Below, in pieces: positions 12,071 to 56,576 of a stretch of DNA of 64,000 nucleotides. The translations under genes were made by a program, and so were the position numbers. Each line of letters starts with the position of its first letter. The stretch's first letter is position 1. The stretch is from Microbacteriaceae bacterium VKM Ac-2854 (GTDB lineage Bacteria; Actinomycetota; Actinomycetes; Actinomycetales; Microbacteriaceae), in the NCBI GenBank assembly GCA_013205085.1, contig JABMLH010000006.1:62001-126000 (forward strand), given 5' to 3'. The notes under the pieces were generated by a model that saw only the letters and a program-made list of their open reading frames with translations, searched no databases and had not been told where the DNA came from.

Positions 12071-13813
12071 TCAGGACGCCACCGGGATGCGCAAGCCGGC
12101 GACGAGGCCGCGGTAGGTGGCATCGGACGCGAGGAGTTCGACGTGGCTGCCGGACGCGCGGGTGCGGCCGTCCTCGACGACGTAGATGCGATCGGCGTCG
12201 ACCACGGTCGAGAGGCGGTGGGCGATGGTCACGACGGCGATGCGCCTCGCGAGGTCGGCGACGACACGGCGCACGGCGGCTTCGCTGATGCCATCGAGCT
12301 GCGCGGTGGCTTCATCGAGCAACAGCACGGCGGGCGGTCGCAGGCACGCGCGCGCGAAGGCGACGCGCTGCCGCTCGCCCCCGGAGAGTTCTTCACCGTC
12401 GAGAAGAGTGTCGAGCCCGTGCGGTAGCCGCGCCACCAGCTCCGCCAAGCCCACCGCCCGCAGCGCCGCCGAGACCTCCTCATCGTCGGCATCGGGATGC
12501 CGGTAGCGCACGTTCTCGCGGAGGGAACCCGGCAGAAGGGGCGCGGACTGCTCGACGTAGGCGATCTGACGGCGTACGGTGCGAACGCTCAGCTCGGCCA
12601 ACGGCTTCCCGTGCATCGTCGCCGTGCCGCTGGTGGCCTCGACGAAGCGGAGAAGGACAGCGAAGGCCGTGGACTTCCCCGCGCCGGAGGGACCGACCAC
12701 CGCGATGTGACCCCGATGCGGCACGACCAGATCCAGGCCGCGCAACACAGCTCGGCCGCCGTAGCCCGCGACGACCCCCTCGAGGCGCAGCAGCTCGTCG
12801 GCACCGCTCTCGTCGAAATCAGTGATCGCGCATCCGTGCTCGGCCGCCGGCTCGGCGGGGATGGCGGTCAACTCCGCGAGGCGATGCGCCGCGGCGGCGC
12901 CGGTCTGCAGTCGGCCGAGGTGCAGGGCGAGGCTCGTCGCGGGCTCGACGATCTGGAAGGCGTACAGCAGGAACGCCACCAGCGTCGAAACAGCGAGCTC
13001 GCCGGCACCCACCCGGACTCCGCCGAGGGCGAGCACAGCCACGACGGCGAACTGGATGCCGGCTCCCGCCGCGGTCACCGCGACGGCCTCGACGAGAACG
13101 GCGCGGACCCGATGTTCCTTCGATCTGCGGGCGTGGGCGATGATCCGCTCCTGTTCCCGGCGCTGGTTATCGTCGGCCTTCACCGTTCGCACGGCGCTGA
13201 GAACCCCTTCGAGAAGGCCGCCGAGAGCTCCGACCTCGGCCTGCGCGGCCGCCTGCTCCCGCCCGAGCGTCGGCAAGAGCACCGCAACGGTCGCTCCGAT
13301 CAGCACCAGGGCTCCGACCATGGCAGCGAGCATCACCAGATCGAGCACCGCCATCATCGCGAGAACGCCGAGAAGCGCGATCGTGCTGTTCACGATCATC
13401 ACCAGGCTCGTCGCGGCCGCCTCCCGGAGCAGCACGGTATCGGCCGTGACCCGGGTCACGAGGTCGCCGGTGCTCGAACGCATCAGCGCCGGAACGGTGG
13501 CGCCGAGCAGGCGCCGGATCGCGGTGCTCCGAGCGTCGAGGACGACGTTCTCGGCGAGCCGGCCCAACACCATCCACTGGCCGAAGCCCAAGCCAGCACT
13601 AGCCAGTAACAGGACGGTGAGCACCATCATCGGAACGCCGACGCGGCCGGTGGCCGAATCCAGCACATCCCGCACCACGAGCGGCACGGCCAGCGTCGAT
13701 GCGGTGAACCCGAGCCCGAGAACGAGCGCAAGCGCCAGCCGCGGGCCGTGCGGACGAGCGTGCTCCAGGAGCGGACGGATGGTCAGTCGGCCGCGAACGG
13801 CTTCACCGGTCAC
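12071..13813 (-). CDS. ABC exporter, fused membrane and ATPase domains
   Basis: A 580-residue half-transporter expected to work as a homodimer. Residues about 20-310 form a type I exporter membrane domain with six predicted segments. Residues about 340-570 are the ATPase: Walker A GPSGAGKS, signature LSGGERQ, Walker B VLLLDEAT, and the H-loop in TIAHRLS. There is no N-terminal C39 peptidase, so it would export an already trimmed or leader-bearing product. GTG start at 13813 overlaps the end of the small membrane protein gene. As last gene of the leftward run from the lanthipeptide operon it is the best candidate for product export or self-protection. Confidence 0.88.
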   Translation of the reverse strand: MTGEAVRGRLTIRPLLEHARPHGPRLALALVLGLGFTASTLAVPLVVRDVLDSATGRVGVPMMVLTVLLLASAGLGFGQWMVLGRLAENVVLDARSTAIRRLLGATVPALMRSSTGDLVTRVTADTVLLREAAATSLVMIVNSTIALLGVLAMMAVLDLVMLAAMVGALVLIGATVAVLLPTLGREQAAAQAEVGALGGLLEGVLSAVRTVKADDNQRREQERIIAHARRSKEHRVRAVLVEAVAVTAAGAGIQFAVVAVLALGGVRVGAGELAVSTLVAFLLYAFQIVEPATSLALHLGRLQTGAAAAHRLAELTAIPAEPAAEHGCAITDFDESGADELLRLEGVVAGYGGRAVLRGLDLVVPHRGHIAVVGPSGAGKSTAFAVLLRFVEATSGTATMHGKPLAELSVRTVRRQIAYVEQSAPLLPGSLRENVRYRHPDADDEEVSAALRAVGLAELVARLPHGLDTLLDGEELSGGERQRVAFARACLRPPAVLLLDEATAQLDGISEAAVRRVVADLARRIAVVTIAHRLSTVVDADRIYVVEDGRTRASGSHVELLASDATYRGLVAGLRIPVAS

Positions 13814-14006
13814 GGTCGCCGCGGGCGGAGCGGTTGCTGGTGACGAGCGACCACAGGATGCCGGCCCCGCCGACGAACATCAGCACGACGCCGATCGTGC
13901 TCAGATCGAACACCGGGGTCACGATGTGCTGGGTCGTGCTCCACAGCAGGAAACCGCCGACCAGACAGATGATTCCGACGACGAACTCGTAGATCCTGCG
14001 AGACAT
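13803..14006 (-). CDS. Small two-helix membrane protein (DUF6458-like)
   Basis: A 67-residue protein with two hydrophobic helices (about 6-24 and 33-55) and a basic hydrophilic tail. The layout matches small actinobacterial DUF6458-type proteins of unknown function. The ATG at 14006 has a good AAGGAAGGA ribosome site, better than the upstream in-frame starts. Its last codons overlap the start of the ABC exporter by 11 nt, so the two are co-translated. It may be a housekeeping gene captured beside the operon or an accessory to the exporter. Confidence 0.75.
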   Translation of the reverse strand: MSRRIYEFVVGIICLVGGFLLWSTTQHIVTPVFDLSTIGVVLMFVGGAGILWSLVTSNRSARGDRDR

Positions 14007-14024
14007 GGTGCGTCCTTCCTTCCG

Positions 14025-14048
14025 GACCCGGAATGCCGATGCCGGGTC
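14025..14048 (-). terminator. Hairpin between the GAP-family gene and the small membrane gene
   Basis: GACCCGG and CCGGGTC are separated by 10 nt, in the 166-nt gap that is the only sizeable break in the lower half of the operon. No T tract follows. It may attenuate transcription into the exporter genes or separate them as their own unit. Confidence 0.35.
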
Positions 14049-14172
14049 AGTCCTTCCACGGTCGCCGATCTCCGAGCACGTCGCCAGCGACCTTCGTCCA
14101 CATCCGCTGGTCCGTTCGTCGCGATCGCCGCGCCGGTGCTCCCGGATCGACAGCACGGGCGACCGGCGGCTT

Positions 14173-14895
14173 TCAGCGCGCGAACAGTCGGGAGACGCCG
14201 TCGAGGAAGAGCAGCACGGCCACGATGCCGACCACCCAGCTCAGTGCGTCGCCGCTGTGGGCGGCGAGCCACGCGTTCATCGGGCGCAGCAGCCTGCTCG
14301 CACGCTCCCCCAACGCGAAGCGGATCCCTGCGAGGACCGTCGCCGGGGCGATCATCACCGCGGCGTAGCCCGCCAACAGCGCAACTCCCGACGCGAACGA
14401 CACTCCGTTCGTCGTGAGGATGCCGATCGCGGCGAGGTACGGCAGCATCGACACCAGCTCGATCGTGGCGGCGATTACGGCGAGGGCGATCATCACGGGA
14501 TAGCGTCCGTCGTCCGTCGCTGCGCGTTCGCGCCACCGGTCGAGCACCGAGCGACGAGCCGGTTCGAGTGCCGTTCTCGCCCGCCGTGCCGCTTGTTTGC
14601 GCGGAGTGAGGTACTCGCTCAGCGCGAGCAGCCCGATCGCGACGGCGACCTGGGCGATGTCGACCGCCGGTCCGTCAACGGCCTGCAGATCGAGGCCGCG
14701 CAGCCCGTCGGCCGCACCCAGCAGCAGGACGCCGACCGCGGTGTAGAAGACGGCGACGGCGCCCAGATAGCTCGCGATGTGGCCGATCCGGATGCGCGCC
14801 TGCAGCAATAGCGCCACCGGGATGACGAGCGTACCGACGCTGACGCTGTCCAGCAGCGCGAGACCCGCGAGTGAGGCGAGGATCCCGACGCTCAC
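14173..14895 (-). CDS. GAP/Sap-family lipid-addressing membrane protein
   Basis: A 240-residue integral membrane protein with about six hydrophobic helices and a charged central loop (residues about 95-125, Arg-rich). It resembles the GAP family, whose mycobacterial members Gap and Sap are needed to bring glycopeptidolipids and sulfolipid-1 to the cell surface. The GTG at 14895 overlaps the stop of the FAD protein by 4 nt (GTGA), which fixes the start. A lipid-trafficking protein inside a lanthipeptide operon argues that the product or an intermediate carries an acyl chain. The family call is good; the substrate is inferred. Confidence 0.72.
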   Translation of the reverse strand: MSVGILASLAGLALLDSVSVGTLVIPVALLLQARIRIGHIASYLGAVAVFYTAVGVLLLGAADGLRGLDLQAVDGPAVDIAQVAVAIGLLALSEYLTPRKQAARRARTALEPARRSVLDRWRERAATDDGRYPVMIALAVIAATIELVSMLPYLAAIGILTTNGVSFASGVALLAGYAAVMIAPATVLAGIRFALGERASRLLRPMNAWLAAHSGDALSWVVGIVAVLLFLDGVSRLFAR

Positions 14896-16307
14896 GGCGG
14901 AGCCATCGGGGCGAGGAGTCCGGCGATGACCGCGTCGCTCTCGGCCGCGAGACGCGCGCGGGATGCCGGGCCGGGGAGGCCACCGCCGAGCGGGAACGAG
15001 GCGGCCTCTCCGAGCACGGCCAACGGCGGCATCTCGCCAGGGCACCGGTTGTCGCCACTGCGCACCAGGATGCGGCCGTCCGGATCGAGCGGCCAGCCGG
15101 TGCCGTCCCTGCGGCACAGCGGGAACGGCGGCGTCGGCGCCGGAGCGTAGGCACGGATGCTCCACGCCGCGCCCGGACTCGTGTCCGGCGGCAGGATCCT
15201 GACGACACCCGCGCGCAGCAGTGCCTCGAGTTTGTGGAAACGCTCCGGTGGCGGACCGGACGTCAGCCGAGCACCGACGGCCTCCAACGCGCCGAGCTGA
15301 CGAGCGGACAGCGCCGGCACCGCGGCCACGAAGTCGTCGACGGTGCGCTCGACCGTCTGCGCGAACTCCCGCGCGTCCGCGGTAGCCGATTCGAAAGCGC
15401 GCCCGGCCACCCAATCGGCGATGTCGATGCCGTCCGACGACATCGCCGCGAGCCTCGCGGCACCCACACCACGATCGAGGAGCCGTCGGCGCAGCGCCGT
15501 CATGATCGCAGCGCGCAGGTCGCCGTCCGGAGCGCGGAACGCCGCCAGTTCCGCTTGCTCGAGCGGATCCGGATGATACGGATCGGCCGCAGACCCGACG
15601 GCCTTGGGTGGCACCGGTAGGCCACTGCGCGAGGTGGCCATGATGCGCGGCTCACGTCCGGATCGGAGGTACCGTCGGCCGCGATCGTGGGATCGGTAGG
15701 TCCCGCCGCGGTCCTCCGTCAGCACCGAGACCGCATCGTGAAAGCTCAGTCCGAGCCCGGCCACGAACACATCCGCTCCGGCGGGCACGGCGTCGAGGGG
15801 GCGTGTGGCGCCGTCCGGATCCGTCGCGACCATCGGCGGACAGCCGCTTCCGGTCGCGACCACGACCGCGTCCGCGCGCACCGTCCTGCGCGTCGAGCCC
15901 GCGAGTTCGAGGCGCCAGTGGTCGCCGTCCTGCACGGCGGCGCGCACCATCGCGCTGATGCGCTCGACCCGGATCCCCGGCCCGATGGCCTCGTCGATCG
16001 CGCCGGCCGCCGCGCGCAGATATGCGCCGACGGCGCGGCGGCTCGGGAACGCGTCGGCGGCTAGGTCTGCGCCACCCCAGTCGCCGAGGGTCGGGAACCC
16101 GCCGACCGCGACCTGCGACACGACGCTGTTGGCGAGCAGGCTCGAGGACTGATCGTGCCGCCAGACCGTGCCGGCCCCGTCGGGAAGCGAGTCGATCACC
16201 GCGACCCACCGCCGGCGGCCGTCGCGACGCGCGGCGCAACCGAGGGCCGCCAGCAACGCGGTGCTGCGCGGACCACCGCCGACCAAGGCGACGTCGAAGG
16301 TACTCAC
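14892..16307 (-). CDS. FAD/NAD(P)-binding protein (NAD_binding_9 type)
   Basis: A 471-residue predicted flavoprotein. The N-terminal dinucleotide-binding motif is VALVGGGPRS (residues about 6-15) and a second element is VVVATGSG (about 145-152). It belongs with the FAD/NAD(P)-binding proteins distantly related to lysine and ornithine N-monooxygenases. The reaction is not evident. It is not a LanD-type decarboxylase: it lacks the small HFCD fold. The GTG at 16307 overlaps the TPP enzyme stop by 4 nt, and its own stop overlaps the next gene by 4 nt, so it is a tightly coupled part of the operon. A tailoring oxidation is the likely role. Confidence 0.72.
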   Translation of the reverse strand: MSTFDVALVGGGPRSTALLAALGCAARRDGRRRWVAVIDSLPDGAGTVWRHDQSSSLLANSVVSQVAVGGFPTLGDWGGADLAADAFPSRRAVGAYLRAAAGAIDEAIGPGIRVERISAMVRAAVQDGDHWRLELAGSTRRTVRADAVVVATGSGCPPMVATDPDGATRPLDAVPAGADVFVAGLGLSFHDAVSVLTEDRGGTYRSHDRGRRYLRSGREPRIMATSRSGLPVPPKAVGSAADPYHPDPLEQAELAAFRAPDGDLRAAIMTALRRRLLDRGVGAARLAAMSSDGIDIADWVAGRAFESATADAREFAQTVERTVDDFVAAVPALSARQLGALEAVGARLTSGPPPERFHKLEALLRAGVVRILPPDTSPGAAWSIRAYAPAPTPPFPLCRRDGTGWPLDPDGRILVRSGDNRCPGEMPPLAVLGEAASFPLGGGLPGPASRARLAAESDAVIAGLLAPMAPP

Positions 16308-17932
16308 CAGCTCTCCGAGAGCACCGGCGCGCCCTCCTCCGCGGTGCAGGGCACCACGAGGACGACCGGTCCGTCGACCGCGGCGGCGAGCGCCCACCGC
16401 AACGCCGGACCCGCCTCCTCGGCGCAACGGATGGACCGGGTCACGAGGCGTCGGCCACGCGCGTCCGTCGGTCGCAGCGCGGAGAGCCCGGTGAACTCAT
16501 CGCCGTTCGCGCCGGTCACTGCTCGATCCTGCAGCTCCAGCCAGCCGAATCCGCCGTTGTCGAAGACGACGTAGACGACGCCGGGAGCCCCAGGGCCGAA
16601 CGAGGCCCGTTCGTGCCCGAGCATCGAGAATGCGCCGTCACCGCCGAAGGCCACCACCGCCCGCCCGCCCGCCCGGGCGGCGCCGGACGCCGCAGCGGTG
16701 CCGAAACCGAGCGTGGTCTGCTCGGACGGTGCGATGTCGATCGCTCCCGGAGGCAACCGGAACGCGGGGAAGAGGTAGCTCCACATGTCTGCGGATCCGT
16801 TCTCATGGCACACCACGACATCCGCGGGCAGGGTGGCGGCCAGTTCAGCCACCACGCCGCCGAGACGGCTCCACGGGCGGACCGGACCTACTCCGAGCCG
16901 GAGGCTCTCGCCCCACGCGTCCAGACCCGAGCGCACACGGGCGATCGTCTCCGACCACTCCGACGCCGCACCGCCGGCGGCCTCGCGAGACCATGCCAAC
17001 GCCACCGAGGCGTCGATACGCTCCGAGCCCGGCTCGTCGGGATCGATGTCCAGGCGCTGCACGGGCATCGACGGAAGGTGCTCGATCGCGGTCTCCTCCA
17101 GCCGCGAGCCGATCACGACCAGCAGGTCGGCTTCGGCGAGCGCCGCACGCGCCAGGGGATGCAGGTACAAGCCGCTCAGGCCCCAGAACAGCGGCTCGTC
17201 CTCCGCGACGATGCCGCGCCCGCTCGCGGTGCACAGCAGCGGCGCGTGCAACGCTCTGGCAAGCGCGGTGACCGCTTCCCCGTGACCACGAGCGCCGGCG
17301 CCGACGAGAACGACCGGATGGCGAGCGGTCCGGAGCGCGTCGGGCATGGGCGGCGCGAGCGACGGGTGTGATGGCCGACACGGCGCCGTTGACGTAGCGT
17401 CGCGGAGGCCGGGAACGGGAGACTCGGGGATCTCCAGGACGACGGGCCCTGCCGGCGCGCGGTTCGCCTCCTCGAACGCGCGGAGGGTCTGCTGCGCGGC
17501 GTCGTCGCCGGGCGCGAGGCGATGAAAGGCTTTCGCCAGCGGCTCGAACAGTGCTCGCTGCGGAGCGAACTGGAAGCTGCGCGCCGTCGCACCCTCCGGC
17601 GCACCGCCGACGAGCAGCACCACGGGCTCTCCCGCCGTGGCGATCTCGAGCAGCGGCGGAACGAGTGCGGCGGCTCCCGGACCCCGACCGGCGACGACGA
17701 CACCGACACCGAGCCCGCCGTCTCGCCGTGACACCGCAGCGTCGCCCACCGCGGCGTACACGGCGTTGCGCTGCTCGCTCGTCACCACGAGGAAGACGCC
17801 CGCGGCGCGCAAGGCCGCTACGGCTGCCATGTCATCGCCGGGCAGCCCGTAGACGCGCTGCACGCCGGCGTCGACCAGTGCACGCGCGACGCTCACCCAC
17901 GGGGAATCCGTTTCGGTCGACGGTGCGCTCAT
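16304..17932 (-). CDS. Thiamine diphosphate-dependent enzyme (acetolactate synthase/decarboxylase superfamily)
   Basis: A 542-residue protein with the three-domain ThDP fold. The N-terminal Pyr domain carries the probable activating Glu in VTSEQRNAV (about residue 53). The middle domain is about 190-320. The C-terminal PP domain has GGDGAFSMLGHE and, 20-odd residues on, DNGGFGW, the Mg-ThDP motif. Family members cleave 2-keto acids or join aldehydes into acyloins. The ATG at 17932 overlaps the previous stop (ATGA), which excludes the longer in-frame start at 17983. Beside an aldehyde-forming fusion protein, an acyloin-forming or 2-keto-acid-using step is plausible, but the substrate cannot be read from sequence. 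Confidence 0.82.
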   Translation of the reverse strand: MSAPSTETDSPWVSVARALVDAGVQRVYGLPGDDMAAVAALRAAGVFLVVTSEQRNAVYAAVGDAAVSRRDGGLGVGVVVAGRGPGAAALVPPLLEIATAGEPVVLLVGGAPEGATARSFQFAPQRALFEPLAKAFHRLAPGDDAAQQTLRAFEEANRAPAGPVVLEIPESPVPGLRDATSTAPCRPSHPSLAPPMPDALRTARHPVVLVGAGARGHGEAVTALARALHAPLLCTASGRGIVAEDEPLFWGLSGLYLHPLARAALAEADLLVVIGSRLEETAIEHLPSMPVQRLDIDPDEPGSERIDASVALAWSREAAGGAASEWSETIARVRSGLDAWGESLRLGVGPVRPWSRLGGVVAELAATLPADVVVCHENGSADMWSYLFPAFRLPPGAIDIAPSEQTTLGFGTAAASGAARAGGRAVVAFGGDGAFSMLGHERASFGPGAPGVVYVVFDNGGFGWLELQDRAVTGANGDEFTGLSALRPTDARGRRLVTRSIRCAEEAGPALRWALAAAVDGPVVLVVPCTAEEGAPVLSESW

Positions 17933-18882
17933 CCCTGGACTCCACGGGGGATCTCCCGGCCGCGGTGCTGCGGCGACCGCCACTGCTCAGCGAATCCGCG
18001 CTCCGCACCGCGCGCGAAGTGCCGCAGTAGTTCGCCTCGGGTCTCTTCGGGACTCGCCTGGGCGCCGGCGTACGCCGCATCCGCTGCCGTGTCGTCGGTC
18101 GGCTCCGCCACGGCGACCGCGAAGGCGAGCATCGACGAGTCGGATGCGTGGCTTACCCAGTCCGACACCCGTCCGTTCGCGATCCGCACCCGCGCGTCGA
18201 GGTGATCCCGAGCGGTGTCGGTGCCCCAGAGGCGCTCGGCGACCAGGTAGCAGTTGAAAGTGCCGCCGGCTTCGTCTTCGGCGAGCGAGCCGAGGTCGTC
18301 CACCACATCGCGCAGGACGAACAGCTCGCGCAGCGGCAGCTGCAGATCCTCCGCCGCCGCGCTACCCGCGATCTCCGCCGCGACGGCGGCGTGCAGCACC
18401 AGGTCGAACGGACGCAACTCGATCATCCGATCGAGCTCCGCGGCGGATCGTGCGCGACCGCTGACGAGAGCGGTCTCCAGCTCGGCCAACTCCCGCAATG
18501 GGGCCACGGCGCGGCGCACTCGGGCACCGCGGATGCCGAGGCTGCCGAGCAGGGCGAGGATCTCCGGTCCCCAGACATCAACGACCTCGGAGCCTGGGGC
18601 GTCGCGCTGGCGCCGCTCGATCCGCTCGTCAGCGCGATACACGATGCCGCCGATGTGGGTCAGCAGCGGCAGGATCCGCAGGAGCTGGACGTCCCGAAAG
18701 CCGAGGGCACGAAGAATCGGCGTCATCGCGCGGCACACCTGCGCCGCCGCCTGGGTCGTGCCGAAGTCGCCACGGGAACCGCGCCAGAGGATCGCGACCT
18801 CGGCACTCGGTGCGCGACGCGCGTCGTGGTTCGTGCAGCGCGCGATGCGTTCGTCGGCGATGGCCGGTCGGTGGACCGTCAC
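17929..18882 (-). CDS. Unknown, terpene-synthase-like (divergent class I motifs)
   Basis: A 317-residue, mainly helical protein without a confident family. Two segments recall class I terpene synthases: DERIE at 85-89, where the DDxx(D/E) metal motif is expected, and DDLGSLAED at 195-203 followed by N210, close to the (N/D)Dxx(S/T)xxxE motif and its downstream Asn. The preceding stretch (RPFDLVLHAA, about 157-166, then R191) also fits that fold, and the length is normal for bacterial terpene synthases. The distance between motifs, about 110 residues, is short. GTG start at 18882 overlaps the ketosynthase stop (GTGA). It could instead be an unrelated helical protein with chance motifs. Confidence 0.45.
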   Translation of the reverse strand: MTVHRPAIADERIARCTNHDARRAPSAEVAILWRGSRGDFGTTQAAAQVCRAMTPILRALGFRDVQLLRILPLLTHIGGIVYRADERIERRQRDAPGSEVVDVWGPEILALLGSLGIRGARVRRAVAPLRELAELETALVSGRARSAAELDRMIELRPFDLVLHAAVAAEIAGSAAAEDLQLPLRELFVLRDVVDDLGSLAEDEAGGTFNCYLVAERLWGTDTARDHLDARVRIANGRVSDWVSHASDSSMLAFAVAVAEPTDDTAADAAYAGAQASPEETRGELLRHFARGAERGFAEQWRSPQHRGREIPRGVQG

Positions 18883-20129
18883 GGAGCCCCCTCCCGGTCA
18901 CTCGCCTCGAGCACGATGCTGGTCGCGTGCCCGCCGAAGCCGAACGAATTGGACAGGGCGAAGCGCCCGCTGAACCGCCGCGCCGTGTGCGGGACGAGGT
19001 CGAGAAAAGGGAACTCGTTGTCGTCGAGATTCAGGGTCGGGGGCGCCCACCCTGTGCGCAGCGCCTGGACGCACGCGATCGCCTCGATGACGGCCGTCGC
19101 CCCGATCATGTGGCCCGTCATCGATTTGGTCGAACTGATTGCCGTACCGCGCGCGCCGTCCAGGACGTCCCGCAGCGCGTGCGCCTCCACCTCGTCGTTG
19201 AGCCGAGTACTGGTGCCGTGGGCGTTGACGTAGCCGATCCGCTCCGGAGCCACGCCAGCGGTGGAGAGGGCCGTACGCATCGCGCGCCGCGCGCCGCGGC
19301 CGTCCGGATGCGGTGCGGTGACGTGGTGCGCGTCGTTCGAGGCTCCGTAGCCGCGGAGGATCGCGAGCGATCGTGCGCCCCGGGCTGCGCGCGACGCCTC
19401 CGATTCCAGCACGAGCGCACCGCCGCCCGCCGCGAGCACGAATCCCGAACGCTCGCGGTCGAACGGACGACTCGCCCGTTCCGGGTCGTAGTTGAACTGT
19501 GTGGTCAGGGCACGCGCTCCGGCCACGACGGCGAGATCGCGCGGCAGCACCTCGCCGTCCGCGCCGGCGACGACGACGACGTCGGCTTCGCCCGACTCGA
19601 TGAGTCGTCGCCCGTGACCGATAGCCGCATTGCCCGACGCGCACGCGGCGCTGAGGGCGATCGCCTCACCGCGGAAGTCGTAGCGAACGGCGATCTGCGT
19701 GGCCACGAGGTCGTGAGTGCCGTAGACCGCGTGCCGTGGCCCGAAACCGGACGGCCCACGCTGAGCGAGCACGTCGACCGCATCCGCGTTCGTCGCGGTG
19801 CAGCCGTAGCCGGTGCCGACGACCACGAGCACCCGCTCGCGATCGATGCGGTCGTCCTCGGCGTCGATGCCCGCCTGCGCCAGGGCCTGAACCGCGGCGC
19901 TGACACCGTATTGCACGAAGCTCTCGAGGCGTCGGGCGTCAGGCGCCGAGAGGTACTCCAGCGGATCGAAATCGAGCACATCGCCGGCGATGTGGACGGT
20001 GTGGTCCGCGACCGGGAAACGGTCGATGCGACGGATGCCGGATCTCCCGGCGCGCATGGCGCTCCATGTGCTCGGCACGTCGGCCCCGAGCGGGGTGACC
20101 GCCCCCATTCCCGTGATGTGCACAGTCAT
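18879..20129 (-). CDS. Beta-ketoacyl-ACP synthase (FabF/KAS II-like)
   Basis: A 416-residue thiolase-fold condensing enzyme. The catalytic triad is visible: Cys in ALSAACASGN (about 170), His in NAHGTSTRLND (about 305), and His in NSFGFGGHA near the C-terminus; the Lys of STKSMTGH is present. It therefore should be active in decarboxylative Claisen condensation, extending an acyl-ACP. No ACP, acyltransferase or ketoreductase is encoded nearby, so it would borrow them from primary fatty-acid synthesis. ATG at 20129 overlaps the ligase-ALDH stop (ATGA). A pathway-specific acyl chain for the peptide is the simplest reading. Confidence 0.9.
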   Translation of the reverse strand: MTVHITGMGAVTPLGADVPSTWSAMRAGRSGIRRIDRFPVADHTVHIAGDVLDFDPLEYLSAPDARRLESFVQYGVSAAVQALAQAGIDAEDDRIDRERVLVVVGTGYGCTATNADAVDVLAQRGPSGFGPRHAVYGTHDLVATQIAVRYDFRGEAIALSAACASGNAAIGHGRRLIESGEADVVVVAGADGEVLPRDLAVVAGARALTTQFNYDPERASRPFDRERSGFVLAAGGGALVLESEASRAARGARSLAILRGYGASNDAHHVTAPHPDGRGARRAMRTALSTAGVAPERIGYVNAHGTSTRLNDEVEAHALRDVLDGARGTAISSTKSMTGHMIGATAVIEAIACVQALRTGWAPPTLNLDDNEFPFLDLVPHTARRFSGRFALSNSFGFGGHATSIVLEASDREGAP

Positions 20130-22792
20130 CGTGCCCCCTCCTGAGACCGGCCCGGTGTCGAGTCCTCGACGTCGCGGGCCGCATCGACGCCCAACACGGC
20201 GGCATATTCCCGAGCCACCCGGGAGAGCAGCAGCGCACCGGTGCGCAGACCGCTGCGGGTCGCGAGGTAGCCGGCGATCTCGCCCATGCCGCCGAAGGCC
20301 TGATGCGCGTCGTCGACCGCGACCAGCGTCGCTCCGACTGCGACCGTCATCCGTTCGGCGCACCACTGCTCGAAGTGCTCACTCGTTCCGTACAGCGACG
20401 CGCCCATGTGCCGCGCGCGGTAGAAATCCGAATCGAGCAGCCGGATGCACTCGGCCTCGTCGCGGTAGACCAGCACGTTGAACACGGGCGCGAACACCTC
20501 GCTGCAGGTCGGCGCCTGCGACATGGGCCAGGTCAGCACCGTGGGCTCGATGATGCCGGTGCGCAGATCGACGCGGCCACCCGAGCGCAGCGCCGAGCGA
20601 TGACGGCTGACGTGCTGCACGACGTCGTGCAGCACCAATGCATCGCTCGCCCCGCGCACCCGACCGTCCGCAGCGTCGAGCAGATTCTCCAAGGATTCCT
20701 GGCGCAGCTGCTCGTCGAGTTCTGCGAGGAAGGCCTCGGCGCGATCATGGTGCACCGCCACGAGATCCGGTCCGAAGCAATCCTGACCGGAGTTGAGCAG
20801 ACGCATCCGCGCGACATCGCGCGCCGCGCGCATGATGTCCGCGTCGGCGCCGACCACCATCGGATTCGTACCTTGACCGAAGTAGGCCATGACGTGCCCA
20901 ACGCCGAGGCTGGAGCGGACCTGCTCGGCGTTGCCGTGTCGCCCGGTGAAGACCACCAACCCGTTGCGCCCCTCCCGCAACCGCTCGAACTCGCGCTGGC
21001 TGCCCTCGAACGCCTCGATTCCGCTCGGATGCAGAGCCTCGAGCGCCGCATGCAGTTCGAGGGTCGCCACCCGCGAGCGCGACGACGGGCGGAACACCGC
21101 CCGACCCGTCCACGCCGACGGGATCAGGAGGTAGAGGACGTAGGAGTACAGGACGACGTTGGAGGGGAGGTACACCCAGCTGCGCGCGACCGGCGCCGGA
21201 CGTTCGCTCACGGTCTCCGTCGCGGCACCGCGGAGTGCGGCGACCGCGGCGTCGAACTCGATCTCCGCGGCCGGGCGGGCCGAGTAACCGGTCATGATGT
21301 CGACGAACTGCGCGCGTCGACGCAGCAACCCGTCGGCGAGAACGGCGAGCGGATCGACGGGTCGCGTCGCCACGGTCGCTTCCAGGAGCAGACGCAGGCG
21401 CGCACGGTCCGGCTTGCCGGTGACGGTCCGTGGCAGCTCCGCACGCACGAGGACTCGGTCCGGGCGCTCCGCCTCCGCCACCGTCTCCGCGATCCGACGC
21501 GACCACCAGGCCGGCAGCCGTCGGATCCGATCTTCGACGACGACCGCGTAGCGCGCGTCCTCCGCGGTTCCGTAGGCGACCGTCACCGCGTTGATGCCGG
21601 CCTCGCCCAGCCGATGCTCGACGGCGGAAGGATGCACGAGCAGACCATTGCGGTTGATCGCGCCGAATCTGCCCAGGACGCTGAGCGTGCCATCCGCCCG
21701 GATCGTCGCGAGGTCTCCGGTGTCGTGCCAGTTCGACGAGCCGGCGAGGCGCAACTCGAGACGACCCGCCGCGCCGTCGGGGCACGCTGCGCCGTCGGGG
21801 TCCAGCACGCGCAGGCCGATGCCGGGCATCGCGCGCAGCCCGGCGGACGGTGCCGCCGGATCCGCGAGCGCGACGTTGCCCCATTCGGTGCTTCCGTAGC
21901 CGTCCACCAGGGCTCGGCCGAACGTCGCGAACACCCCGTTGTGAACGGCCCGCGGCACGATGCCGCCGCCGACGCCGAGCAGCCGCAAGCTCTCCACGGA
22001 TTCGGCGGGGAGCTTGCCGCGCTCGATAGCCCTGGCGATCACTCCGTACGACTCCGGTGCGGCCTCCAGCACTGTGGCGCCCCAGCGACGGCCGAAGCGA
22101 ACGGCATCGAGGGGGCGGCGGAAGGCGGACACGATCACCGGTATTCCCCGGTCGAGCCCGATCATCAGCACGGAGAAGCCGTATTGGTGGCTGAGTGGAA
22201 GCAGCGGCTGCAGGGCATCGTCTTCTCGATACCCGAGGACCTCCGCCGTGCTCCGACCGTTCGCCACGACGTCGGCGGGTCGTTTCGCCACGGGTGTCGG
22301 TCCGGACGTGGAGCCCGAGCTGAACAGGACGAGCCCGTCCTCGCGCCGCCACCAGGCCGGATCCGACGGCAGGGTGCCCGTATCCTCGCCGCGCTCGCCC
22401 ACCGGGCCCTCGGCGGAGATCAGACCGGGCTCGAGGTCGACGAAGTCGGACAGGGGCCAGACCCGCGTCGCGCCCGACAGGTCGCCGAGGGGCCTGCGAT
22501 CCGTGCGGGCGCGGACCACGTGGTCCGGGCGGCCCGCAGCGACCATGGCGGTCTCGTTCACGAACTGACGCGGATCCACCACCAGCACGGAGCACCCGAC
22601 TCGCGCGAGGGCTAGCAGGAGCACAACGGCGTCGGCCGTTTCGTCCAAGGTGATCGCCACCCGATGTCGGGGCAGAATCCCGGCGACGACGAGTCGTTCG
22701 GCGGCCGCCGCGGCCTCGTTGACGAGCGCGGCGGCGGTGAGCCGGCTGCGCTGGGCGATCAGCATCGGTCGATCATCAGGGGTCGCGCTCAA
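20126..22792 (-). CDS. Acyl-adenylate ligase fused to an aldehyde-dehydrogenase-type domain
   Basis: An 888-residue fusion. Residues about 1-470 are an ANL adenylating enzyme: P-loop LFSSGSTSGPTPVAKRP, YGSTEWG, WHDTGDL, and the C-terminal catalytic Lys in TVTGKPDR. Residues about 490-850 are an ALDH-fold domain with the nucleophile Cys in NSGQDCFGPD (about 667). The general-base Glu motif ELGG is replaced by YFGQGTNP, as in acylating or reducing family members that do not hydrolyse the thioester. Predicted chemistry: activate a carboxylic acid with ATP and hand it to the Cys for reduction to an aldehyde. No carrier-protein domain is seen. The start is TTG at 22792 or ATG at 22765. Confidence 0.78.
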   Translation of the reverse strand: MSATPDDRPMLIAQRSRLTAAALVNEAAAAAERLVVAGILPRHRVAITLDETADAVVLLLALARVGCSVLVVDPRQFVNETAMVAAGRPDHVVRARTDRRPLGDLSGATRVWPLSDFVDLEPGLISAEGPVGERGEDTGTLPSDPAWWRREDGLVLFSSGSTSGPTPVAKRPADVVANGRSTAEVLGYREDDALQPLLPLSHQYGFSVLMIGLDRGIPVIVSAFRRPLDAVRFGRRWGATVLEAAPESYGVIARAIERGKLPAESVESLRLLGVGGGIVPRAVHNGVFATFGRALVDGYGSTEWGNVALADPAAPSAGLRAMPGIGLRVLDPDGAACPDGAAGRLELRLAGSSNWHDTGDLATIRADGTLSVLGRFGAINRNGLLVHPSAVEHRLGEAGINAVTVAYGTAEDARYAVVVEDRIRRLPAWWSRRIAETVAEAERPDRVLVRAELPRTVTGKPDRARLRLLLEATVATRPVDPLAVLADGLLRRRAQFVDIMTGYSARPAAEIEFDAAVAALRGAATETVSERPAPVARSWVYLPSNVVLYSYVLYLLIPSAWTGRAVFRPSSRSRVATLELHAALEALHPSGIEAFEGSQREFERLREGRNGLVVFTGRHGNAEQVRSSLGVGHVMAYFGQGTNPMVVGADADIMRAARDVARMRLLNSGQDCFGPDLVAVHHDRAEAFLAELDEQLRQESLENLLDAADGRVRGASDALVLHDVVQHVSRHRSALRSGGRVDLRTGIIEPTVLTWPMSQAPTCSEVFAPVFNVLVYRDEAECIRLLDSDFYRARHMGASLYGTSEHFEQWCAERMTVAVGATLVAVDDAHQAFGGMGEIAGYLATRSGLRTGALLLSRVAREYAAVLGVDAARDVEDSTPGRSQEGAR

Positions 22793-22828
22793 GGTCCAGC
22801 CTCTCGGTCGGCGGGGTCGTCGATGAAG

Positions 22829-22866
22829 GCGGGGCGGGCGGCGGGGCGTACCCGCCCCCGCCCCGC
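22829..22866 (-). terminator. Strong hairpin directly after the precursor gene
   Basis: GCGGGGCGGG pairs with CCCGCCCCGC, and inside it GGCGGG pairs with CCCGCC around a 5-nt loop, giving 16 GC-rich pairs interrupted by one bulged base. It starts 7 nt after the precursor stop codon. No T tract is present. It could act as a partial terminator or as a 3' stabiliser, making precursor mRNA more abundant than the downstream genes. Confidence 0.6.
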
Positions 22867-22872
22867 GGAGTG

Positions 22873-22959
22873 TCAGCAGTTGGTGCTGACGGACGATCCG
22901 AGCGCGATGGTCGTCTCGGTCTCGGTGGCCTCGAGGCCCTGGAGTTCGATGATCTGCAT
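22873..22959 (-). CDS. Class III lanthipeptide precursor peptide
   Basis: A 28-residue peptide. The leader begins MQIIELQGLE, which matches the ILELQ-type recognition motif of class III leaders such as labyrinthopeptin. The C-terminus is SSVSTNC, a perfect Ser-x-x-Ser-x-x-Cys labionin motif ending on the last residue. The gene starts 5 nt after the LanKC stop; that TGA lies inside the Shine-Dalgarno sequence AAAGGAGGTGA. The start is the ATG at 22957-22959, not the GTG upstream, because the GTG is part of the ribosome site. The product should be dehydrated by LanKC and cyclised to labionin or lanthionine. A C-terminal Cys is also what an avionin-forming LanD would need, but no LanD is seen. 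Confidence 0.88.
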   Translation of the reverse strand: MQIIELQGLEATETETTIALGSSVSTNC

Positions 22960-22964
22960 GATGT

Positions 22965-25595
22965 TCACCTCCTTTCTGAGGTCGTCGGGCGGACGCCCCG
23001 GTCCGGGGTCCGTTCGTCCGGCGCCGAGGCGACCGTACGGGGGTGACGGTCGCGGGCGTCCTCGCCCGCGACCGAGAACAGCGCGCCGCCGAGCAGCGCG
23101 TCCAGGAGGCGGTGTCGCGGTCCGCCCGGAGCGTTCACGGCCTCGACTCCGGCCGCTACTCCGGCGGCACCCGTCGCCAAGTCGTCGGCCAACCGGAGGC
23201 CGCCGCGTCCGAGCACGGCCGGCCCGTGATCGGTGCGCACGAGATGTCGGTCGAGCCGTTCCAGGTGCCGTCGTGCTCCGACGAACCAACTGTGCGCCGC
23301 ATCCGCCGCATCCAGCCGCCGTGCCGCTGCGGAGAGAGCGGCGAGGCCTGCCGCCAATCCGACGCGGCCCGCGACCGGGCCCGCATCGGCGACGAGATCG
23401 ATCAGCGCGGAGGTCGCGAGGGCCCGCGTCGAATCGTCGAGCGTCCTGCCGTCCATTCGGGCCGCGGTGCCGGCCCGCGCCAGCGCCACCCCCAGGGCGC
23501 CGCGGCCGAGATAGGGCAGACGCAGCGCGCCTCGTCGCGCGACGAGCAGACCGGGGCGGAGCTCCTCGCAGCCGGCGAGATCGCGTTCGCGACAGACTCG
23601 GATCGCGCCGAGGAGTCGGCGGGCGTCCGCGCCGTCCGCGCGGGCCACGATACGCGACAGCACGAGGGCGATACCGCCGTGCCCGTCCTCGAGACCCGGC
23701 ATCGTGGGGGCCGCCGGTCCGTCGAGTTCTGCGGCGATCCGCAACGCCATCGCGAGTGACGCATCACGCTCCGTGTCGGAGTGCGCCGTGATGTCCAGCA
23801 TCCAGGCGACGCCCGCGAGCCCGCCGCCGAGCGTCAGCGCGGTGCAGTCCCGGGCCGCGGCGACCGCGATCTCCCGAGCACGCCGACTCGACGTAGCATC
23901 GGCGCGCAGGTGCGCCGCGACGGCGACGCCCGCCCAGCCGTCCCAGAGCCCAGGATCGTCGTCGTCGATCTCGAGCACTCGGTCACGCAGGGCGTTCTCG
24001 GCGGCGACTCGCTCGCCGTCCGGCAGCACCCCGACGATCCCGGATGCGCCGTGCGCCAGACCGAGAGCGGCGAGCCCCGTGGCGAGTCCGCGCGGATCGA
24101 TCGGGAACAGCGCCTGGGTATCCGTTCGGAGCGCCGTGGCCGATCGGCGGGTCAGGGCCGCAGCGTCTGCGGGAGGCTGCGCCGCCGCGGTGCCACGGCA
24201 GCGCATCCCGGACCGGATCTCCGCCTCCGCGACGAGTGCCCAGTCCGCATCCCGCCCGAAAAGCGCGCGGATGTCGGCGCAATGCACGGAGAGCAGATGC
24301 TCATCGATTTCTATGGCGCCGCCGATCACGGGGCTGAGCAGCCAGAGCCCGAGAACAGCCAGGGCATGCGCGTCGCGCTGGGCTCCGGTACCACTCTCGC
24401 GAACGAAACCGGCGCAGCCGAGGCTCGGTGTCGTCGCGTCGCTCGCCGGCGCCGCGACCTCGAAGTCGATCAGGTGCACCGAGAGGTCCACATCGACCAG
24501 GATGTTGCCAGGATGCAGATCGCGGTGGGCGATTCCCGCCCGGTGAATCCCCTGCACCAACTCGGTCACGCCGGCGTGGATCCGACGACACCGTTCGGCG
24601 TAGGCCCGGATCGCACTCGGCGTCGCCGCGGGCTCCAACGCCGGGTGCTCGGCAGCGGCCCACGACCGCAGGCTCACACCGGGCAGTGCAGTGATCGCGG
24701 CGAAGCTGTGGCCGCCCGCCGTCAACTGCGCACGCAGCCGAGGCACGCCGCCGACGGCGGCCAGTTGCCCGAGCACGCGCGCCTCGGTGTCGAGCCGGAT
24801 CGTCGCCGATTCCATCGCGGGCCCATCGCCCGTGTGCGGGCGGGCCTCCTTGAGGATCAGTGGCTCCGTGTCGTCCTCGGCGCTGGCGCGGTACACGCCG
24901 CCGCAGTTGGAGAACTGGATCGCGGCGCTCACGCGGAAGGGGAATCGCACCGGGGTCTCGATGACCATCCGTTCCCGGAGTGCGGGCGACGGTACCGTCC
25001 GCGGCGGGATGCTTCGGGTATCGGGCACGAGCGCGCCATCGGCACCGGGCACGGCGAGGACGCGAGCACCCGAAGCCGTCCACACCGTGCGCGATCGGAA
25101 CGCCCCGTAGCGAACCGAAACCGGCCCGTCCTCGCGCCACGGAAAGTCGGTGAGCACACGCGGACCCGCCACTCCTCGCAGCGAATCGGCGAGTTCGTCG
25201 GCGATCCGCGCCGTCGCGGCATCATCCGTCGGATACACGGCGATGAATTTGCCGCTGGCCGTTCGCGGCGCACCCTTCGAATTCATCGCGACCAGCAGCG
25301 CCGTGGAGCGGAGGTGTTTGAACGCGACACCGTCTCGGTGGCAGATCTCAGCAACGCAGCGGAGCGTTCGCTCCGCATCGGGCAGCACTGCCGAAACGTG
25401 GATCTTCCAGCCGGCGTCGGGCAGGATCGGCGCGTCCGCAGCACGGTGCACCACCCAGAACGGCGTCCGTGTCGTGCTCCAGCCTTCGGCGAGGACGGCG
25501 GAGCTCAGATCCCGATTCCAGGCCGGCGCCCAGTCGGCCGGGTGCGCGAATTCGAGCGGATCCGCCAGGCAGAACAGATCCAGATCCTCAGCCAC
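22965..25595 (-). CDS. Class III lanthionine synthetase (LanKC)
   Basis: An 876-residue trifunctional enzyme: N-terminal phospho-Ser/Thr lyase region (about 1-205), Ser/Thr kinase (about 215-500) and LanC-like cyclase (about 520-860). Kinase features are the Lys in LILKEARP (about 247), HRDLHPGNILVD (about 355) and a DFE in place of DFG (about 377). The cyclase part has the repeated G-rich helices (GWAGVAV, LGGGLAGVAW, LEDGHGGIAL) but none of the Cys/His zinc ligands of class I-II cyclases, which marks class III. The GTG at 25595 overlaps the GNAT stop by 8 nt; longer in-frame starts would run deep into that gene. It phosphorylates, eliminates and cyclises the precursor encoded next. Confidence 0.92.
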   Translation of the reverse strand: MAEDLDLFCLADPLEFAHPADWAPAWNRDLSSAVLAEGWSTTRTPFWVVHRAADAPILPDAGWKIHVSAVLPDAERTLRCVAEICHRDGVAFKHLRSTALLVAMNSKGAPRTASGKFIAVYPTDDAATARIADELADSLRGVAGPRVLTDFPWREDGPVSVRYGAFRSRTVWTASGARVLAVPGADGALVPDTRSIPPRTVPSPALRERMVIETPVRFPFRVSAAIQFSNCGGVYRASAEDDTEPLILKEARPHTGDGPAMESATIRLDTEARVLGQLAAVGGVPRLRAQLTAGGHSFAAITALPGVSLRSWAAAEHPALEPAATPSAIRAYAERCRRIHAGVTELVQGIHRAGIAHRDLHPGNILVDVDLSVHLIDFEVAAPASDATTPSLGCAGFVRESGTGAQRDAHALAVLGLWLLSPVIGGAIEIDEHLLSVHCADIRALFGRDADWALVAEAEIRSGMRCRGTAAAQPPADAAALTRRSATALRTDTQALFPIDPRGLATGLAALGLAHGASGIVGVLPDGERVAAENALRDRVLEIDDDDPGLWDGWAGVAVAAHLRADATSSRRAREIAVAAARDCTALTLGGGLAGVAWMLDITAHSDTERDASLAMALRIAAELDGPAAPTMPGLEDGHGGIALVLSRIVARADGADARRLLGAIRVCRERDLAGCEELRPGLLVARRGALRLPYLGRGALGVALARAGTAARMDGRTLDDSTRALATSALIDLVADAGPVAGRVGLAAGLAALSAAARRLDAADAAHSWFVGARRHLERLDRHLVRTDHGPAVLGRGGLRLADDLATGAAGVAAGVEAVNAPGGPRHRLLDALLGGALFSVAGEDARDRHPRTVASAPDERTPDRGVRPTTSERR

Positions 25596-26250
25596 GAGCC
25601 GCCACCCCCGCGTCGGCACCGAGGTCGGCACGAGCGGCGAGCGGATCGGCGAGGTAACGCTCGAGGAAGAGGCGCGCTGATTCCTTCTCCGCGTCGCTGA
25701 CGGTCGGCACATAAGCGAGAGCACCGCCCGCCGTCTCGGCGAGCAGCCGACGATGCTCGGCGCGCAGCAACGACCAGACGAGGGCGTCGGAGAACTCACC
25801 GTCGAGGAAGTAGTGCTCGCGCAGACGTGCCTCCAGGACGAAGCCCGAGCGCGCCAGCGCCGGAAGCGTGTACGGGTTGAAGGCGCCGGTCAACAGGAAC
25901 ACTTTGTTCGCGTCATAGGTCATGAAGAGGAAATCGACCAGGCGCAGCGCGGCCTCGCCGCCCAGGCCGGAGCGCCACTGCGCCGGGTCTCCGACAACGA
26001 CGGCGAATTCGAGATTGCGCGGGTTGCCCTTCACGCTCCAGGTGCCGACACCGAATGCCCGGTCCTCGCGATCGGCGAAGACGAACAGCCGCCCGCTCGC
26101 GGCGAGCGACTCCACCAGTTGCACCGTGACGGACTCGCGAACATCGCTCGACAGCGCGGCCGCTCGGCTGGAAACGCCCAGCCACTGGGCGACGCTCTCC
26201 CGTTCCTGCGCGGTCCGCGGCAGTCGCAGCCGTACTCGTGCTTCACGCAT
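25588..26250 (-). CDS. GNAT-family N-acyltransferase
   Basis: A 220-residue protein with the acyl-CoA-binding loop in WRSGLGGEAAL (about 92-102) and the GNAT core (FGVGTWSV, LEFAVVVG, then NPYTLPALARSGFVLEARLRE). It is the first gene of the lanthipeptide operon and overlaps LanKC by 8 nt. In goadvionin and microvionin-type pathways a GNAT or equivalent joins an acyl chain to the peptide N-terminus; the same job is inferred here, though it could instead acetylate the product for immunity. The ATG at 26250 is the first start after a 231-nt gap that holds the operon promoter; no promoter is convincing, and TAGCGT near 26340 is only a weak -10 candidate. Confidence 0.8.
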   Translation of the reverse strand: MREARVRLRLPRTAQERESVAQWLGVSSRAAALSSDVRESVTVQLVESLAASGRLFVFADREDRAFGVGTWSVKGNPRNLEFAVVVGDPAQWRSGLGGEAALRLVDFLFMTYDANKVFLLTGAFNPYTLPALARSGFVLEARLREHYFLDGEFSDALVWSLLRAEHRRLLAETAGGALAYVPTVSDAEKESARLFLERYLADPLAARADLGADAGVAARG

Positions 26251-26481: not shown

Positions 26482-27705
26482 TCAGAGCGCGCCGGCAGGC
26501 AAGGTCGCTCGGACGACCCAGCGGTCGCCGACTGCAGCGGCGTCCACTCGCCCGCCGACCTCAGCGGCGCGTCGCCGCATCCCGGCGACTCCGTAGCCGC
26601 CCGGCGCGCTCGCGGGTCGATGCGGCACGGCGACGAGTCGGTTCGACACCTCGAGCGTGACGGAGTCGGCGGTCCGACGCAGATGGATTCGACAGTCGGC
26701 CCGATCGCCGGCGTGCTTGAGCACGTTCGTCGTGGCCTCGATCAGAATGCGATCGAGGGTTACCCGTACGGCTTCGGGGACGCGCCGATCGGCATCCTGT
26801 GCCACCTCGACCTCGACGTCGATCCCCGCGGCACGCAACTCGGCGACGACGCGCTCGACCCGCTCGGCAGCCCCGCGCGGCACCGCGACCTCCCCCGCCT
26901 CGCCGCCCGCCGACTCATCCGGGTCGAGCACCTGCAGCAGCCGCCGCAACTCGGCCAGTGCGCTCGCGGCGGAGGCGCTGATGGTGGCCATCAGCTCGCG
27001 CGGCTCGGCTTCGCCCCCGCCGCGGATGCCCATGTTCGACACCATGCGGATGAGTGTGATGTGGTGGGCGACCACATCGTGCAGGTCGTGCGCGATCAGG
27101 CGGCGCTGCTGCGCCGCCGCGTCGGCGAGATCGCGTCGCAGCATCTGCGTGCGGGCAGCGGTGACGGCGCGTTCGACCAGCACGCGGCGCACGGCGTAGC
27201 CGATGCCCGCGGCAGCGGCGACGCCCACCGAGACCGTCACCATCAACCCGGTCGACCCCGGGCTGGACACAGCGACGACCATGCCCCAGCCGAGACAGGC
27301 GAGCAGGTATCCGACGATGAAGGTCGGCGGCGTCAGCGCGACGACGAAACCGGTCGCGAAGACGAGCGTGCTCGCGGGCACCTCGGGTGAGGCCCACGGC
27401 ACGGAGAGGAAGGCTGTCACCACAACGACCGCCGCCGCCCACGTGACGGCGAACGGCAGCAGGATGAGACCGAACGTGTAGAGCACGGCGATCGCGATCT
27501 GCTGGATCCGCAGTGTCGGCGATGCATCGGCCGGAGCGGATTCGAGCACGGAGACGATGTCGAACAGGAGGCCGGACACGGCCAGCAGTGGCACCGCGAG
27601 CTGGGTCCAGCGCGCCGCGGGAGCGTAGTTCCAGAAGCCCCGGCGGGGTGGCCGCGCCGGGACCGCGTCGTCGACCCCCGTGCGGTCCACCCCCGTGCGC
27701 GTCAC
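26482..27705 (-). CDS. NarL/DesK-type sensor histidine kinase
   Basis: A 407-residue membrane kinase. Five or six hydrophobic segments fill residues about 30-180. The HisKA_3 dimerisation box is RRLIAHDLHDVVAHHI with the phosphorylated His in DLHD (about 209). The ATPase domain follows, with the N-box in ATTNVLKHAG and the G-box in GGYGVAGM. It is last in a leftward group of response regulator, ABC ATPase, permease and kinase, 37 nt behind the permease. The short extracytoplasmic loops fit sensing within the membrane, as in antibiotic- or envelope-stress systems. It lies 231 nt upstream of the lanthipeptide operon. GTG start. Confidence 0.88.
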   Translation of the reverse strand: MTRTGVDRTGVDDAVPARPPRRGFWNYAPAARWTQLAVPLLAVSGLLFDIVSVLESAPADASPTLRIQQIAIAVLYTFGLILLPFAVTWAAAVVVVTAFLSVPWASPEVPASTLVFATGFVVALTPPTFIVGYLLACLGWGMVVAVSSPGSTGLMVTVSVGVAAAAGIGYAVRRVLVERAVTAARTQMLRRDLADAAAQQRRLIAHDLHDVVAHHITLIRMVSNMGIRGGGEAEPRELMATISASAASALAELRRLLQVLDPDESAGGEAGEVAVPRGAAERVERVVAELRAAGIDVEVEVAQDADRRVPEAVRVTLDRILIEATTNVLKHAGDRADCRIHLRRTADSVTLEVSNRLVAVPHRPASAPGGYGVAGMRRRAAEVGGRVDAAAVGDRWVVRATLPAGAL

Positions 27706-27742
27706 CCCGCCAGGCTACCCGACGCCCTCGTGTCGGCGCCGC

Positions 27743-29706: not shown

Positions 29707-29809
29707 CTTCTCCCGTCGTCGTCCTTCGACGGTACGGAGCGGGACCGGCTCGGCGCCTCGTCCATCCGTATCGTTCCGCCGCGACGAAAGTCGTGGGTGG
29801 GAACGACGG

Positions 29810-30475: not shown

Positions 30476-30518
30476 GCCACCGAGCCTAACCACTCCCGCT
30501 CGGGGGTCGCCCGCGCGC

Positions 30519-52585: not shown

Positions 52586-52659
52586 GCGACTGTAGTTCAA
52601 TGGCAGAACTTCTGCTTCCCAAGCAGATAGCGCGGGTTCGATTCCCGTCAGTCGCTCCA
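52586..52659 (+). tRNA. tRNA-Gly (anticodon CCC)
   Basis: Acceptor stem GCGACTG/CAGTCGC, anticodon stem TCTGC/GCAGA with loop TTCCCAA, T arm CGGGTTCGATTCCCG, and an encoded CCA end at 52657-52659. The anticodon CCC reads GGG. An integrase gene starts 62 nt beyond its 3' end, so the tRNA is the probable attachment site of the adjoining island. Confidence 0.95.
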
Positions 52660-52720
52660 GGCCCGGTCAGAGGGCATTTTCGTTCCTAGCCTCGCTGAGC
52701 CATCCGGCCAAGGTCGCTGT

Positions 52721-53869: not shown

Positions 53870-53957
53870 ACATGTCTCCTTCGTGCCCGGGCGGAGTGAT
53901 CAGTTGCTGGTCGGTGGCCTCGCGAGCCACCAAAGCCGCGACATCAGGTGTCGCCAT
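53844..53957 (-). CDS. Possible 37-residue peptide overlapping the integrase start
   Basis: ATG at 53957 is preceded by a good AAAGGAGA site. The peptide begins MATPDVAALVAREATDQQL and ends in the integrase 5' region, overlapping it by 26 nt in another frame. It may act as a translational leader for the integrase or be an excisionase remnant; it has no recognisable domain. Confidence 0.35.
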   Translation of the reverse strand: MATPDVAALVAREATDQQLITPPGHEGDMCGTPTTST

Positions 53958-54001
53958 TTCTCCTTTCGATGAAGTTCAGCCCGCCCCGGCCGAACCATTT
54001 G

Positions 54002-55988: not shown

Positions 55989-56032
55989 ACGAGGCCGAGC
56001 GGATGGAATTGCTGCGATGTCGTCAAATGTTA

Positions 56033-56575: not shown

Positions 56576-56576
56576 C

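Follow-up and report, generated by a model that had tools for sequence, protein, structure and literature searches.

What does an operon make in which a class III lanthionine synthetase (LanKC) stands beside enzymes of fatty-acid chemistry? The question is raised by a 64,000-nucleotide stretch of DNA from Microbacteriaceae bacterium VKM Ac-2854 (contig JABMLH010000006.1, positions 62,001 to 126,000 of the forward strand; the window hereafter), in which an operon running from 26250 down to 12071, with all its named genes on the minus strand, had been described in an earlier note as an acylated class III lanthipeptide cluster. That description is still the best reading: acyl genes of the type used for the lipid of fusaricidin, a GNAT acyltransferase and LanKC recur together in other genomes. 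We consider it rather probable that the locus is a lipolanthine-type cluster whose lipid is supplied by a fusaricidin-type fatty-acid module.

The acyl genes are more familiar than had been supposed. Domain searches (Pfam, NCBIfam) bore out the genes already named (GNAT, LanKC, ketosynthase or KS, ligase-aldehyde dehydrogenase, thiamine diphosphate enzyme, FAD protein and GAP-family protein), and the claim that they form an unfamiliar enzyme set had to be dropped, since the ligase, the aldehyde dehydrogenase (ALDH), the thiamine diphosphate (TPP) enzyme and the KS correspond to fusF, fusE, fusD and fusC of fusaricidin synthesis. The first two are joined in one 888-aa open reading frame (ORF) with AMP-binding and Aldedh domains (20126..22792), in which the core motifs of the ligase are kept. 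The KS (18879..20129), assigned to the FabF type by profile match, retains ACASG, NAHGTST and GHMIGA, and the TPP enzyme (16304..17932), of the acetolactate synthase superfamily, has three TPP domains and the GDG motif. Genes fusG to fusB are reported to make the guanidino lipid part of fusaricidin, a 15-guanidino-3-hydroxypentadecanoyl chain, and each of them to be required for activity (PMC6829208). A Paenibacillus brasilensis locus has the order ligase, ALDH, TPP enzyme, KS, small ORF and long frame, and its first three ORFs, of 1461, 1224 and 1701 bp, have the lengths that Table 1 of the same paper lists for fusF, fusE and fusD.

Are these genes the cell's own, lent to a peptide, or a set apart? 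At 55%, the KS matches that of Cellulomonas gelida better than any other KS encoded in its genome (40% at most), and the same holds for the TPP enzyme (39% versus 27%); because both are nearer to the C. gelida proteins than to paralogues at home, the acyl genes are taken to be a dedicated set, and probably a mobile one. The fusion protein matches its C. gelida counterpart at 51% across the ALDH part, and a search of 14 further congeneric genomes at E 1e-25 found it in none. When plasmids were searched by tblastn with this protein, adjacent genes for ALDH, TPP enzyme and ligase came to light in Streptomyces; of the two plasmids compared, one has a KS as well. A second KS-like stretch (G000:C15:42951-44120), 31% to the cluster KS and within a 1148-aa open frame, lies about 18 kb before the window, which starts at C15:62001.

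To what extent does the module keep company with lanthipeptide genes elsewhere? An ALDH alignment, run against the genome collection, gave 106 relatives, of which 80 loci were kept and read within about 10 kb on each side of the ALDH. Matches to the ligase occur in 73 of them, to the TPP enzyme in 72, to the KS in 68 and to all three in 61, and ligase and ALDH share a single open frame in 43. The acyl module repeatedly meets LANTHIPEPTIDES: LanKC is present in 16 of the 80 loci, 15 of which have the GNAT too. In C. gelida the gene set and order of the window, minus the gene called terpene-synthase-like, are divided between two contigs, one ending with GNAT, LanKC (42%) and the precursor MAVLELQALEAEQTETAQVRGSSLSWSC, the other starting with ligase-ALDH, KS, TPP enzyme and FAD protein, from which the SfLAP gene that follows is separated by about 1.4 kb. 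With C. gelida and the window added to the 16 loci, there are 18 LanKC clusters, and in every one a short precursor with the motif S-x2-S-x2-C is found beside LanKC. Only the first spacing was fixed in the pattern used (S/T-x2-S/T), the second being left free, and it came out as two residues every time. Since other genera and families have the set as well, the comparison argues that the operon is more than a chance assembly.

This distribution also bears on another explanation, in which the lanthipeptide and the lipid genes would be chance neighbours or make two separate products. Indeed, 64 of the 80 loci have no LanKC in the stretch examined, although one of them, that of C. gelida, has it on another contig, and the Streptomyces plasmid versions are found among other biosynthetic genes. 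On the other hand, the joint presence of LanKC and GNAT in 15 loci goes with one type of precursor, and in a tree of the ALDHs only 4 changes are required for the 18 lanthipeptide rows, versus a mean of 16.6 after shuffling, with 0 of 500 shuffles as low. The rows are thus clustered without being one clade, and at least three of the four changes are forced by starred branches; the window, C. gelida and L019 sit on long branches whose joining is uncertain. Chance neighbours or separate products seem very unlikely.

Two features of the related loci deserve a mention of their own. In the Streptomyces plasmids (NZ_CP108063.1 and NZ_CP140776.1) the ALDH, TPP-enzyme and ligase genes are surrounded by NikS, cysteine-synthase-like, serine acetyltransferase and ATP-grasp genes, in a cluster of another kind that is apparently uncharacterised. 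A protein resembling the small chain of ribonucleotide reductase, which is not encoded in the window operon, occurs in 11 of 17 related loci (L019, L031, L034, L037, L038, L043, L048, L058, L066, L078 and L080); it is PF00268 in both loci scanned, L048 and L019, and possibly represents a di-iron oxygenase that acts in this pathway.

What peptide would be acylated? LanKC (22965..25595, starting with GTG at 25595 or further upstream) scores 566.7 bits with NCBIfam lanthi_synth_III (NF038151) and 181.8 bits with Pfam RamC_N; it keeps the HRD and DFE motifs, and its relatives in PDB are LanKCs. The precursor, an ORF of 28 aa with a RamS-like leader (22873..22959), MQIIELQGLEATETETTIALGSSVSTNC, begins directly past the LanKC stop and is preceded by AAAGGAGGTGAACATC, a good ribosome-binding site; its match to Pfam RamS is weak (E 0.0045, below cut-off). 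Its proposed core, GSSVSTNC, ends in Cys. A precursor is thus present, as had been stated; the labionin motif ascribed to it is more doubtful, the observed S-x2-S-x2-C being shorter than what we take to be the labionin spacing. The GNAT (25588..26250; Pfam Acetyltransf_3, E 6.8e-07) lies beside LanKC in related loci and is 47-48% identical to the C. gelida protein; for seven further GNATs from such clusters the figure is 30-33%. A GNAT profile search for lipolanthine clusters with LanD found none in the phylum or family samples. Matches came from 12 of 396 genomes of the phylum (E 1e-20, own genome included), from 2 of 398 of the family (E 1e-22; the own genome and G778), and from plasmids as 4 weak records. 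The single phylum match inspected, in G167, has KS- and ABC-like genes in its vicinity, and the 26 kb examined there contain no match to LanKC.

The nature of the ring depends on LanD. In the genome of VKM Ac-2854 the only PF02441 match is a 421-aa CoaBC-like frame on another contig. Among the 18 genomes searched, 17 gave PF02441 matches, the exception being a metagenome bin (G099), and in none of the 18 does such a gene lie near the LanKC that accompanies the module. Where the two share a contig, the smallest distance is about 240 kb (G110); G112 also has a match some 75 kb from a LanKC, but this is another LanKC than the one with the module. The contigs with LanKC are short or cut in G109, G099 and G115, so that a LanD past the edge is possible in these three. 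For microvionin, MicKC is reported together with MicD. Because no LanD was found besides the one CoaBC-like match, avionin formation by the usual route appears unlikely, and a labionin or a lanthionine with a free carboxylate is expected. The earlier conclusion that the missing LanD means labionin rather than avionin therefore holds as far as avionin goes; labionin itself is not singled out, lanthionine being the alternative. Could the product be an ordinary avionin lipolanthine all the same, with a decarboxylase missed by the PF02441 search or a non-homologous one within the cluster? The core spacing and the C-terminal Cys are as in nocaviogua, and a flavoprotein is present in the operon, both of which would suit such a product. 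Yet the flavoprotein belongs with the NAD_binding_9 proteins and N-hydroxylases, and residues follow the Cys in both L019 peptides, in one L044 peptide and in both peptides of G778, a genome of the same family. We give this possibility little credence.

What would the acyl enzymes do? None of the 81 readable ALDH relatives (83 were examined) has a Glu in the six residues preceding the NP motif. Since that Glu is the usual general base of ALDHs, plain oxidation of an aldehyde by this domain appears unlikely; acyl-thioester and reductive chemistry would both be possible. The earlier proposal was that reduction brings the acyl part to the aldehyde level, with the TPP enzyme perhaps processing it further. 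In its full form, the ligase-ALDH fusion would turn an acyl acid into an aldehyde, which the TPP enzyme would join to another unit to give an acyloin-type tail. LuxE with LuxC offers a precedent for reduction of an acid to an aldehyde. The fusion of ligase and ALDH in more than half of the loci and the missing Glu are in keeping with this idea, and the PDB matches of the TPP enzyme include carboligases such as acetolactate synthase, along with BbmA/CsmA, on which a literature search gave nothing relevant among the matches listed. Against it stands fusaricidin, where the same module serves a chain whose name, as printed in PMC6829208, shows no acyloin. The fusaricidin precedent, in which a guanidino chain is made or activated, is simpler, and a reductive route seems to us improbable.

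Returning to a lipolanthine-type cluster with a fusaricidin-type module, we may sketch how it could work. What the sequence shows directly is which genes are present, what they are related to and that the precursors have a core in common; the order of the chemical steps we infer. The TPP enzyme would decarboxylate a 2-oxo acid with an amino or guanidino group at its end, and the resulting aldehyde would be converted to an activated acyl group by the ALDH-fold domain, or else the linked ligase would activate the free acid. The KS would then prime chain elongation, the remaining steps being borrowed from cellular fatty-acid synthesis. LanKC would phosphorylate, dehydrate and cyclise the 8-residue core to a small labionin or lanthionine system, the C-terminal carboxylate being retained because there is no LanD. 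After removal of the leader by a protease encoded elsewhere, the GNAT would attach the omega-guanidino or omega-amino fatty chain to the new N-terminus, and the product would leave through the ABC exporter, perhaps helped by SfLAP. The flavoprotein would probably oxidise a nitrogen of the starter or of the product. A review describes the fatty acids of lipolanthines as guanidino fatty acids with bis-methylation, and GNATs as enzymes that acylate ribosomally synthesised and post-translationally modified peptides.

Several points weigh against this scheme. The LanKC score lies slightly below the NCBIfam cut-off of 575 bits. Ligase, TPP enzyme and KS are found together in just 5 of the 16 LanKC loci (L019, L043, L048, L058 and L073), the TPP enzyme being missing from the stretch examined in 6, the KS in 5 and the ligase in 5. 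A Pfam scan of ten ORFs of the operon showed no acyl carrier protein, FabG, FabZ or FabI, whereas the fus cluster has fusB and fusG, and neither the dehydratase (fusB) nor the enoyl reductase (fusG) had a match among them. The printed chain lengths are odd, C13 (PMC10435860) and C15 (PMC6829208), and a simple arginine-derived C4 starter does not yield them; they would need a C3 or C5 starter. Arginine-derived 4-guanidinobutyryl as sole starter was set aside, as it would give even chains.

Three further proteins could modify or accompany the product. The flavoprotein (14892..16307; NAD_binding_9) has a sole solid match in PDB, the aspartate N-hydroxylase 8CP2 (E 2.1e-26, residues 45-299). In this enzyme (FzmM/CreE) an Arg cluster and a helical domain are reported to bind aspartate (PMC10404684). 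Arg13 is kept in the window protein, Arg266 faces Lys and Arg276 faces a gap, in an alignment that excludes the Arg409-Arg416 stretch; the helical part is shorter in the window and C. gelida proteins than in six relatives. The flavoprotein thus resembles an aspartate N-hydroxylase with a reduced substrate domain. Aspartate as a proven substrate was set aside, Arg266 and Arg276 not being kept and the helical part being shorter. The 317-aa protein that had been called terpene-synthase-like (17929..18882) owes that name to a single NSE-like motif, DDLGSLAED at residue 195, which we take to signify class I terpene synthase metal binding, and has in addition a weak ADERIE; searches of Pfam (to E 10) and of PDB sequences (to E 1) gave no match at all. 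Nothing akin to it was found in PHROGs, in plasmids or in the 80 related loci, and 396 genomes of the phylum gave two partial matches besides itself (E 0.005 and 0.0096). Its AlphaFold model is helical, with a pLDDT of 40.1, too poor for use. The SfLAP/GAP membrane protein (14173..14895; PF11139, 78.5 bits, cut-off 35) had been cited in support of an acylated product, which it favours only weakly: a 40% relative stands in the C. gelida locus, and it occurs in 2 of the 80 related loci. If all these hints are combined, one may imagine a LanD-less lipolanthine branch spread over several actinobacterial families, with a labionin, a free carboxylate, an omega-guanidino chain whose head would be oxidised by the N-hydroxylase-like flavoenzyme to an N-hydroxyguanidine, oxime or nitro group, and an extra change made by the new helical enzyme in this strain alone so far; taken as a whole, this picture is tentative and rather doubtful.

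The remaining genes complete the operon. The junctions had been described as nearly all 4-nt overlaps, which is true of five (fusion/KS, KS/terpene-synthase-like, terpene-synthase-like/TPP enzyme, TPP enzyme/FAD protein and FAD protein/SfLAP), but GNAT and LanKC overlap by 8 nt. A small DUF5708 gene (13803..14006; PF18969, E 2e-09), left out of the earlier gene list, lies between SfLAP and the ABC exporter, with which it overlaps by 11 nt; its family is present also in L031. The exporter (12071..13813) combines ABC_membrane and ABC_tran domains, and a piece matching it at 44% adjoins the LanKC of C. gelida. Between precursor and ligase-ALDH, a hairpin (22829..22866, minus strand; -47.5 kcal/mol over an 88-nt stretch, z -2.77, 2 of 200 shuffles equal or better) is a possible partial terminator. 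Upstream of the GNAT, minus-strand genes for a histidine kinase, an FtsX/MacB-type permease, an ABC ATPase and a LuxR-type response regulator (26482..30493) are presumed members of the cluster and probably serve regulation and immunity; in L071 genes akin to them adjoin the acyl module. Elsewhere in the window, a phage-type integrase (52721-53869, minus strand) adjoins tRNA-Gly (52586-52659) in a lower-G+C stretch with an HNH endonuclease (52586-58000), a probable integrated element. Another lower-G+C stretch (4040-11065, minus strand) encodes a protein of 2341 aa in which RHS repeat and two PA14 domains are combined, and at 44622-47471 (plus strand) a single protein of 949 aa joins an APH-type kinase domain to a class III aminotransferase.

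Our search of the open literature (titles and starts of abstracts, the primary microvionin and goadvionin papers not being covered) found, among the matches listed, no paper linking the fus module to lanthipeptides. Within that literature, a lipolanthine-like peptide that is formed without LanD and acylated by way of a fusaricidin-type module would be new, the fus enzyme set itself being known. Lipid genes known from lipopeptides of non-ribosomal peptide synthetases (NRPS) are thereby tied to ribosomal peptides, and the clusters form a set for testing the origin of guanidino fatty acids, in which the small group of TPP enzyme, ALDH, ligase and KS should reveal the starter. Because microvionin, a lipolanthine, is reported to be active on methicillin-resistant Staphylococcus aureus below 0.46 ug/mL (PMC10435860), a scaffold that dispenses with decarboxylation could be of interest as simpler to engineer.

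How does the cluster compare with known systems? With the lipolanthines (microvionin, nocavionin, nocaviogua and the goadvionins), whose known members are described as carrying a guanidino fatty acid, it shares LanKC, a short precursor and lipid genes in the cluster, and it differs from microvionin in that MicD is reported there, whereas no LanD was found in the genome of the window. Nocaviogua A, a guanidino-fatty-acyl peptide with a ring over residues 2, 5 and 8 of eight (A-S-V-S-S-N/D-G-C as we interpret PMC10435860), has the same core spacing and C-terminal Cys. With the fusaricidin genes the window shares the four kinds of enzyme standing together, but its ligase and ALDH are fused, its KS precedes the TPP enzyme, fusB and fusG have no counterpart in the operon, and a ribosomal peptide and GNAT replace the NRPS. 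SapB/AmfS-type class III clusters likewise have LanKC, but no GNAT, ligase or ALDH is annotated in the 2 of 20 plasmid LanKC records examined. In G778 (L130/L131) a GNAT (29%) also stands beside LanKC (32%) and the only PF02441 gene is CoaBC-like; there, the precursors end in GSSVSYNCG and NSSASWNCGG, so that, unlike in the window, Cys is not C-terminal, and the acyl part apparently comes from two polyketide synthase-like ORFs and an NRPS-like ORF (KS matches, by eye). Comparison of the two clusters suggests that acyl modules are swapped between GNAT-LanKC clusters.

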